In this document: piece after piece, positions 21,298 to 23,018 of the stretch
How positions within the stretch are numbered: position 1 is the stretch's first letter
How the letters are laid out: each line of letters opens with the position of its first letter
Notes under the pieces: generated by a model
What the model was told of the DNA's origin: nothing
The model's database searches: none
Seen by the model: the letters and a program-made list of their open reading frames with translations, nothing else
Assembly: GCA_022360055.1 (NCBI GenBank)
Contig: JAKSDO010000193.1
Coordinates: 1 to 55,280 of the forward strand
Source of the DNA: Cytophagales bacterium
GTDB lineage: Bacteria; Bacteroidota; Bacteroidia; Cytophagales; Cyclobacteriaceae
DNA length: 55,280 nucleotides
Direction: 5' to 3'
Made by a program: the position numbers and the translations under genes

Positions 21298-21366
21298 GGT
21301 CTTAGCGAGACGCTAAGACCAGTGATAATAGATAAACTGTCTCTAGTCTTAGCGTCTCGCTAAGAC
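21298..21366. repeat. REP pair (BIME-like), copy 1
   Basis: Two hairpins in inverted orientation: GGTCTTAGCG-AGA-CGCTAAGACC (21298-21320, extendable by one pair) and GTCTTAGCG-TCT-CGCTAAGAC (21346-21366), separated by 25 bases. The second hairpin is the reverse complement of the core of the first, so each strand shows the same REP unit facing outward from the spacer, each preceded by CTGG or CTAG. Confidence 0.92.
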
Positions 21367-21392
21367 GAATACGCACAAAACTTTAAGTCGAG

Positions 21393-21944
21393 TCAATCAA
21401 GAAAATAGATTTCAATTTCACCTTTAACACCTTGATAGTTCCTGGCACTACTACCTGCCCAACAAGAAGGTTCATTAACAAAACCAGCTTTCACTGGATT
21501 ATTGTGCACATATTCAAGGCGTTGCCGAATCATCTCGTTTGAGGATAATTCGATGGGATGATTATGATGTTCCCAAAACTGAAAATCCCTGGTATTTGAT
21601 TTCATTGAACCCTCAGTTTTCATGATTTTTAATATCCATTCTTTTCTACTCTCATGAGGATTATTTTCTACGTATTTTCGGATATGTCGTGAAGTATAAC
21701 TTTTGAAATCTCGGATGATATCCTCCAGTTTATCTTTTCCCGCAGTACCAAGTATCAAGTGAATATGATTTGTCATAATGCAATATGCGCCAATCAAGAG
21801 ACCTTTTTCTTGTTGACAGTAACGAAGGGATTCAAAAATAATATTTCTGTATTCTTGCCTGGCAAATACGTCAATCCAGCGGACAACCGTAAATGTCACA
21901 AAATAAAAGTGATTCTGACTTCTTATTTTATACTTCCTGCCCAC
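21393..21944 (-). CDS. REP-associated tyrosine transposase (Y1_Tnp, IS200/IS605-like)
   Basis: 183 residues. The HUH metal-binding motif is MTNHIHLIL (His60 and His62), and the catalytic tyrosine is probably Tyr83 in RDFKSYTSRHIRK. FWEHHNHPIELSSNEM and YVHNNPVKAGFV are typical of the single-domain RAYT subgroup. The enzyme cuts and joins single-stranded DNA through a 5'-phosphotyrosine link and is thought to spread REP hairpins without moving as a classical insertion sequence. Length and motifs look intact, so it may be active. The gene is framed by two near-identical REP pairs. Confidence 0.93.
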   Translation of the reverse strand: MGRKYKIRSQNHFYFVTFTVVRWIDVFARQEYRNIIFESLRYCQQEKGLLIGAYCIMTNHIHLILGTAGKDKLEDIIRDFKSYTSRHIRKYVENNPHESRKEWILKIMKTEGSMKSNTRDFQFWEHHNHPIELSSNEMIRQRLEYVHNNPVKAGFVNEPSCWAGSSARNYQGVKGEIEIYFLD

Positions 21945-22020
21945 TGATCGAGAATTGATTTGTAGTTTATGTTCAAATTAACGTAAGATCGACCACAAAC
22001 AAAACTGTCATGCCAGAAAA

Positions 22021-22089
22021 GGTCTTGGCGAGACGCTAAGACCAGTGATAATAGATAAACTGTCTCTAGTCTTAGCGTCTCGCTAAGAC
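22021..22089. repeat. REP pair (BIME-like), copy 2
   Basis: The same 69 bases as 21298-21366 except G instead of A at 22028, which turns one pair of the left stem into a G-T pair. The left hairpin is 22021-22043 and the right 22069-22089. It lies upstream of the transposase gene, in the same orientation as copy 1. Confidence 0.92.
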
Positions 22090-22214: not shown

Positions 22215-22877
22215 TTAATATCCGCCTCCTCCGATCATTTTTTGAAAATCTGCCTGAGAGATATCTTCGTAGCCATCCGATTTGTCGAAGATTGCATCCG
22301 AAACCGATTCTTCCGAAACGACGCTTGCAGTTATTCCCATTTTTATATTCTGTTGAGTCACCGAGTACTGCAACGGGAATCCTTTAAGTCCGACAAATTC
22401 TCTTTGAGCTTTATTGCTGATTTTCTCCGTATAATAAACAGTCATGCTCAACTGCCCGGTTTTGTCCTTCATAATTGCTTTTTTACATGGATATCCGGCG
22501 ATCGTCTTGGTCTCTTCCAGGTATTCGATATTCGGCATCTGATTAGCATCTTTATCAAACTCTTCCGTAGAGATGTTTATTCTTATTTTCTGACCTCCCA
22601 TCTCCATCTCCATAAAGCCGTTTTTCCGATCCATGTCGCTTATTACGATCGTTTTTCCCATCATTTGATTTTGTTCAAGCCGAGACTTGCTCCCCTTGAT
22701 ATGAATGATCATTTCTTTTGGAAGCATGGATTCCATCTCTTTCATCTCGGCAGGCATATCCTCGTAAGATATGGAGTAAACAACCCTTCCTTCAAAGCTG
22801 CTTTGTGCAAATGAATTGGAAATGAGAAATGACACAAGTAAAGAAATGTAAGTGGTTGATTTCATTAGTTTTTTCAT
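22215..22877 (-). CDS. Secreted DUF4412/GLPGLI-like protein
   Basis: 220 residues from ATG 22875-22877 (MKKLMKSTTYISLL); the frame opens ten codons earlier at a TTG, which would spoil the signal peptide. The signal peptide ends near ISNSFAQ. The mature part (SSFEGRVVYSISYEDMPAEM, KEMIIHIKGSKSRLEQ, TIAGYPCKKAIMKDK) follows the DUF4412 pattern: a beta-rich periplasmic or outer-membrane-associated domain with the conserved AGYPCKKA segment. The tail is Gly-rich (MIGGGGY). Function is unknown. Confidence 0.75.
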   Translation of the reverse strand: MKKLMKSTTYISLLVSFLISNSFAQSSFEGRVVYSISYEDMPAEMKEMESMLPKEMIIHIKGSKSRLEQNQMMGKTIVISDMDRKNGFMEMEMGGQKIRINISTEEFDKDANQMPNIEYLEETKTIAGYPCKKAIMKDKTGQLSMTVYYTEKISNKAQREFVGLKGFPLQYSVTQQNIKMGITASVVSEESVSDAIFDKSDGYEDISQADFQKMIGGGGY

Positions 22878-23018
22878 AATTGCAATAATTAGAACATGAG
22901 CCCGCAAATTACTCGGGGCGTTTTGGAATTCCTATTTGAATCTGTTATTTAATTTTGGGCCATGCTGTTTGCAAATACCCGGAAAGGATTAGAATATTAA
23001 AGAATCGCCGGGCTGTGG

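Follow-up and report, generated by a model that had tools for sequence, protein, structure and literature searches.

A putative REPtron with CT[AG]G-tagged palindromes and almost no dispersed copies in a draft Cyclobacteriaceae genome

What kind of element lies at positions 21,298 to 22,089 of contig JAKSDO010000193.1 (assembly GCA_022360055.1, a Cytophagales bacterium of the Cyclobacteriaceae), where a small transposase gene stands between two near-identical blocks of hairpins, and how did it come to be there? The whole stretch of 55,280 nucleotides was analysed and is referred to as the window. With a probability of about 0.8, the locus is a REPtron: a gene for a Y1 HUH transposase of the RAYT type (REP-associated tyrosine transposase, also TnpA-REP), near subclass 2.6 of the Bacteroidetes, which lies between inverted repetitive extragenic palindromes (REPs) that are its likely substrates, and which probably arrived recently. 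The REPtron is new as a locus and of a known kind; it adds a CT[AG]G tag for its RAYT lineage and a host genome nearly without dispersed copies. Its features are the following.

21393..21944, minus strand: predicted RAYT/TnpA-REP gene, 183 aa, GTG start, intact frame, with H60-I-H62 (HUH) and Y145
21298..21366, no strand assigned: block 1, inverted REP pair of 69 bp, tags inward, downstream of the gene (repeat comparison, folding)
22021..22089, no strand assigned: block 2, inverted REP pair of 69 bp, 68/69 identical to block 1, upstream of the gene (repeat comparison, folding)
21299..21322, minus strand: REP of block 1, tag CTGG, 21-nt hairpin, loop TCT on the minus strand
21343..21366, plus strand: REP of block 1, tag CTAG, closest to the 3' end of the gene, tag pointing away from the gene
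22022..22045, minus strand: REP of block 2, tag CTGG, one arm mutated, closest to the 5' end of the gene, tag pointing away from the gene
22066..22089, plus strand: REP of block 2, tag CTAG

A preliminary description, made from the letters alone, had reported two 69-bp blocks differing at one base around a 183-residue Y1 transposase, and this was confirmed by repeat comparison and by the open reading frame (ORF); the letters CTGG or CTAG were likewise found where it had placed them, before all four REP hairpins. The single mismatch (A in block 1, G in block 2) falls in the left arm of the first hairpin. Each block consists of two 21-nt hairpins, 26 nt apart, and since these are reverse complements of each other (exactly in block 1, with one arm letter off in block 2) the whole block can fold as one long hairpin. 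Folding of the plus strand gave −25.7 kcal/mol for block 1 and −23.7 kcal/mol for block 2 (z −8.7 and −9.6); over the four strands z ranged from −7.8 to −9.7, and none of 200 shuffles was as stable for any of them. The blocks are direct repeats of each other, and inside each the tags face inwards. Read along the gene, with + for a tag 5' of the hairpin on the gene strand, the order is (− +) RAYT (− +), and the two gene-proximal REPs (+ upstream, − downstream) are inverted to each other with their tags outward. Block 1 lies 26 nt past the stop codon, the blocks are separated by about 650 bp, and the unit measures 792 bp from block to block.

The 183-residue protein scored above the cut-off of the RAYT model NCBIfam NF047646 (102.4 bits; cut-off 80) and below that of the curated IS200 model (33.4 bits; cut-off 55). 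Its predicted fold matched the solved TnpA-REP fold, being nearest to 4er8 and closer to it than to IS608 or ISDra2. Residues H60, H62 and Y145, whose loss the preliminary description had named as evidence against itself, were invariant in all 23 aligned sequences (the window protein and 22 relatives). As for the signature of subclass 2.6 (NH[LIV]H, WQ and YIH[QN]NP), NHIH fits, and WE and YVHNNP are each one residue off; WQ was present in 14 of the 23 aligned sequences and YIH[QN]NP in 18. The host genome (G000) holds a second open Y1 transposase gene (G000:C59:7332-7811; L017), with a product 34% identical to the window protein.

The nearest RAYTs in named genomes were found in a Cyclobacteriaceae metagenome-assembled genome (68% identity), a Cytophagales metagenome-assembled genome (62%) and six Pedobacter genomes (57–63%). 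A scan at up to two mismatches, which took 17 of the 30 loci L033–L062, detected the same hairpin in all eight of these genomes (G001–G008; 9, 9, 44, 17, 18, 32, 55 and 26 places, control 0–3) and at no place in nine other genomes with more distant RAYTs. Within the genus, family and order of the window (59 genomes), the tagged hairpin at up to three mismatches occurred in 11, the host genome among them, at few places each, and the control pattern at one place in each of two. Two same-genus genomes (G020 and G023) hold low-copy look-alikes of the hairpin, and the closest same-genus RAYT is 57% identical.

In a quickly made tree of 85 RAYTs, three changes sufficed for the 11 loci with hairpins of the TAGCG type as against the 13 of another named type (8.1 in shuffles; none of 500 was as low), and four were needed when all rows were coded as TAGCG or not; 61 of the 85 loci carry neither type, and loci L216 and L217 were left out of the analysis. 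These counts support the view that hairpin type goes with RAYT lineage and, with the model score and the predicted fold, bear out the earlier assignment of the protein as a RAYT with cognate REPs. At one locus (L180, G072:C9:11324-13472) the RAYT has a CAAGCG-type REP upstream and a TAGCG-type REP downstream, perhaps a change of REP type in progress.

Hairpin feet were counted in the 600-nt flanks of the 85 full-length RAYT genes (from 99 loci with a RAYT reading frame), which hold 224 hairpins and 448 feet. CT[AG]G was carried by 98 feet, the next of the 16 NN[AG]G motifs by 36 and GT[AG]G by 19. In the window's half of the tree, CT[AG]G stood at 80 of 260 feet and in 30 of the 39 loci with a hairpin; after removal of the TAGCG-type loci it still stood at 35 of 166 feet (next motif 14). 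The split behind this comparison has an SH-aLRT support of only 79, with many forks open. In the tag and orientation counts the window locus itself was scored 'u-', because its mutated gene-proximal hairpin fell below threshold.

Dispersed copies were taken from 36 stretches of two Pedobacter genomes, which yielded 89 and omit most two-mismatch places and, in G007, four places with one mismatch. The C and T ahead of the stem are 90–95% conserved in these copies, the preceding letter being A or T. The asymmetric three-letter loop TCT is likewise conserved, and the letters after the hairpin are less so. CTGG or CTAG is present on 72 of the 89, and 88 lie outside reading frames of at least 100 aa. 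Eight further copies from four stretches of a third genome (G001), excluded from the 89, all lie outside ORFs, and five carry CTGG or CTAG. The pair −1/+21, under the R of the tag, is of Watson–Crick type in 55 of the 89 copies (35.6 expected from column make-up); the R may therefore belong partly to the stem, in which case only CT would form a strictly unpaired mark. A cleavage dinucleotide was sought in the letters upstream of CTGG and CTAG copies; a weak enrichment of C at about −10 to −8 was seen in both, with no trustworthy difference between them.

Canonical REPs carry the head GT[AG]G (PMC2817692; PMC6006769), from which the CT[AG]G of the window REPs differs by the first letter only. 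The earlier suggestion of a tag unlike GTAG, perhaps a guide, held for a conserved mark replacing GT[AG]G; the tag may also guide cleavage. No CTGG or CTAG head for REPs of Bacteroidota is named in the literature searched, supplementary files being outside that search. It had also been supposed that a Bacteroidota version may be little described, which holds in part: a 2018 paper defines subclass 2.6 of the Bacteroidetes, with flanking hairpins, recognised by manual inspection, that lack GT[AG]G (PMC6006769).

The arrangement around the gene is shared with other RAYT loci. The nearest tagged upstream REP was + in 27 of the 35 loci having one (binomial 0.0009), and the nearest tagged downstream REP was − in 22 of 28 (binomial 0.0019), the effective numbers being lower because the loci are related. 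RAYT genes of gammaproteobacteria are reported to lie always between two inverted REPs (Nunvar et al., PMC2817692), and the loci counted here tend the same way. Exact repeats of at least 18 nt, direct or inverted, were common to both 400-nt flanks at 43 of 82 RAYT loci and at none of 102 control positions drawn on loci L033–L062. Direct repeats around the gene recur at other RAYT loci (62 nt in Fulvivirga imtechensis, L045) and are therefore not peculiar to the window. Among adjacent REP pairs at most 120 nt apart in the 40 stretches of the two Pedobacter genomes and G001, the tags pointed outward in 17, inward in 7 and in the same direction in 10, so the inward type of the window blocks is less common than the outward one. 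The RAYT flanks of L210 and L196 carry exact direct repeats of 98 nt and 94 nt, which are not like REP hairpins.

REP copies had been expected to be scattered through the genome, which is true of the eight nearest relatives and not of the host. The host draft has 7,547,564 bases in 300 contigs and is 98% complete; four places in it match the hairpin core at up to one mismatch, all inside the two blocks. With one mismatch allowed in the 18 fixed stem letters, chance would yield about 0.004 places in a genome this large, on the assumption of independent letters and a GC content of 0.42. Eight further places had two mismatches, making 12, and the reversed-pattern control gave 25. A looser pattern (up to three mismatches), applied to the window only, gave four matches with 1.03 expected. 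A DNA search of the host genome with the block region returned the two blocks, each on both strands, and any further match had an E value no better than 0.2. The preliminary description had set the presence of only these two copies against its own proposal, and within this draft there are indeed the two blocks only, with two doubtful relics: G000:C169:1511-1531, with two mismatches in the 18 fixed letters (about 0.1 places expected by chance at up to two mismatches over the full stem), and a 17-nt half copy at C246:53959. Other matches to the transposase in the host genome numbered five, 34–51% identical and four of them partial; no near-identical copy of the gene was among them.

The neighbouring GH2 gene was used to locate the corresponding place in relatives, and was found (E below 1e-50) in four of the seven genomes of the genus, the host included. 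In L142 an S41 peptidase gene, a 230-aa gene and GH2 follow in the same order as in the window, without a RAYT; the distance between two matched points is about 240 nt there and about 1090 in the window, and the excess of about 850 is near the 792 bp from block to block. The S41 gene adjoins GH2 in L141, and the context in L140 is different. Beside GH2 in L140, L141 and L142, no RAYT match better than E 0.4 was found by tblastn, and no hairpin core. The 230-aa gene itself (22215-22907, minus strand) has no Pfam match at E 1e-5 and is kept beside the S41 peptidase gene in L142.

The near-identical blocks and the absence of the element from the syntenic place in L142 agree with a recent arrival in which the REP pair was duplicated locally. 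Clustering of REPs near the gene in marine gammaproteobacteria has been interpreted in the same way, as new REPs made beside a newly acquired gene (PMC2817692; PMC8266576). As for the earlier suggestion of recent or continuing activity, a recent event would suit both the likeness of the blocks and the lack of the element in one fully syntenic relative; activity itself is only presumed, and gene conversion could also keep the repeats alike. Conversion over about 650 bp is what an old resident would call for, a RAYT acquired long ago whose dispersed REPs decayed or never spread. The two possible decayed copies and the look-alikes in G020 and G023 would agree with such a history, against which stand the lack of a RAYT at the syntenic place in L142 and beside GH2 in L140 and L141, and a best same-genus RAYT 57% identical; we regard it as unlikely, though worth keeping in view.

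It is improbable that REP copies exist elsewhere and are missing from the draft assembly. Two other RAYT pieces do lie at or near contig ends (C255:1-165 and C164:528-848), but another REP type was recovered on five contigs of the same assembly. Units of 21–69 bp seldom break assemblies. That second type, GCGCAAGTCTGTGACTTGTGC, was found (up to three mismatches) at seven places of the host genome (C164:415-435, C164:902-922, C113:2067, C113:2307, C162:1192, C255:222 and C62:28964); the two REPs on C164 flank the RAYT piece there, which is interrupted by a stop.

An ordinary insertion sequence of the IS200/IS605 type, with the blocks as its ends, would also have a Y1 transposase between hairpins and could appear as a single 792-bp unit missing from a syntenic relative. 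It is very improbable in view of the two model scores, the fold, the mutual inversion of the gene-proximal REPs and the divergence of the five other genomic matches, with which last a single-copy element would remain compatible. That the hairpins serve the gene merely by ending transcription or stabilising its mRNA is hardly credible, for although one block lies just past the stop codon and single strands fold strongly, a near-identical unit stands upstream of the gene, the asymmetric loop and the CT of the tag are conserved in the dispersed copies of relatives, and hairpin type tracks the RAYT tree. These last three alternatives were considered and ranked below the REPtron.

Several observations weigh against a recently arrived REPtron. 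Its cognate REPs have no close dispersed copies in the host draft, and REP families are usually dispersed. CT[AG]G shows only a weak excess in the rest of the tree, a half that is partly flavobacterial (18 of 188 feet, next motif 14), and the protein appears to match the signature of subclass 2.6 in part only (WE for WQ, YVHNNP for YIH[QN]NP). Of the three same-genus genomes with GH2, two have another gene order. The insertion point cannot be fixed to the base, the intergenic DNA of the genus being too diverged, and the absence of the RAYT from relatives could be a loss. Binding and catalysis by the RAYT are predictions from its sequence.

The REPtron would be expected to use the same chemistry as characterised RAYTs, with Y145 and the tag CT[AG]G. 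The enzymes of E. coli, Stenotrophomonas and Marinomonas cut single-stranded REPs at C|T beside the hairpin (that of Marinomonas also at C|A), those of E. coli and Stenotrophomonas are inactive on the complement strand, and a 5'-phosphotyrosine bond followed by rejoining has been reported (PMC8266576). By analogy, the RAYT protein would bind the single-stranded hairpin through stem-loop and tag, Y145 would cut at a nearby C|T (or C|C) and form a 5'-phosphotyrosine bond, and the RAYT would rejoin the strand, letting REP pairs be copied. The cassette may have come recently into the lineage, its REP pair having so far been duplicated only beside the gene. With the Stenotrophomonas REP in vitro, a change to CTAG only reduces cutting, a change of the second letter leaves no more than a trace of it, and cutting is lost when the third or fourth letter is changed (PMC8266576); the guide model therefore best tolerates a natural switch at the first position. 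More tentatively, and at somewhat less than even odds, the RAYT lineage of Cytophagales and Pedobacter may have switched its head from GT[AG]G to CT[AG]G and kept the tag while the stem was replaced repeatedly, and the window may have caught a REP family as it was being founded in a new host, with one gene, two REP pairs and dispersal still to come.

The start of a REP family is, in our judgement, hard to see once hundreds of copies exist, and an intact transposase gene with only two REP pairs would offer a near-zero starting point. With CT[AG]G as a key, REPs of this RAYT lineage can be searched for simply, where a search based on GT[AG]G misses them, and the guide model can be tested directly.

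Among known systems, subclass 2.6 of the TnpA-REP proteins (Bacteroidetes; listed as Bertels group 5 in the table of Quentin et al. 2018, PMC6006769) shares with the window the phylum, as judged from the nearest named relatives, a similar length (179 residues against 183), NH[LIV]H and flanking hairpins reported there, after manual inspection, without GT[AG]G. It differs in having WQ and YIH[QN]NP where the window protein has WE and YVHNNP; the window genome lacks close copies elsewhere, and for the window the CT[AG]G tag is spelled out. In the REPtrons of gammaproteobacteria (among them Stenotrophomonas and E. coli; Nunvar 2010, PMC2817692; PMC8266576) inverted tagged palindromes likewise enclose a RAYT, RAYT and REP are inherited together, and relatives have intergenic copies; these REPtrons have the head GT[AG]G and usually many dispersed copies, whereas the window has CT[AG]G and four hairpins at one locus. 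A REPIN (Bertels and Rainey 2011, PMC3116915) is also a REP doublet foldable into one long hairpin, but the window blocks have their tags inside (TT dimers according to PMC3733652), and the tag-outside pair encloses the gene. In REPtrons Ma and Mb of Marinomonas MWYL1, as in the window, the REPs are clustered near the gene, which the authors take as a sign of recent arrival (PMC8266576; marine gammaproteobacteria also in PMC2817692); these differ in belonging to RAYT groups 2 and 3 and in carrying the tag GTAG (PMC8266576).
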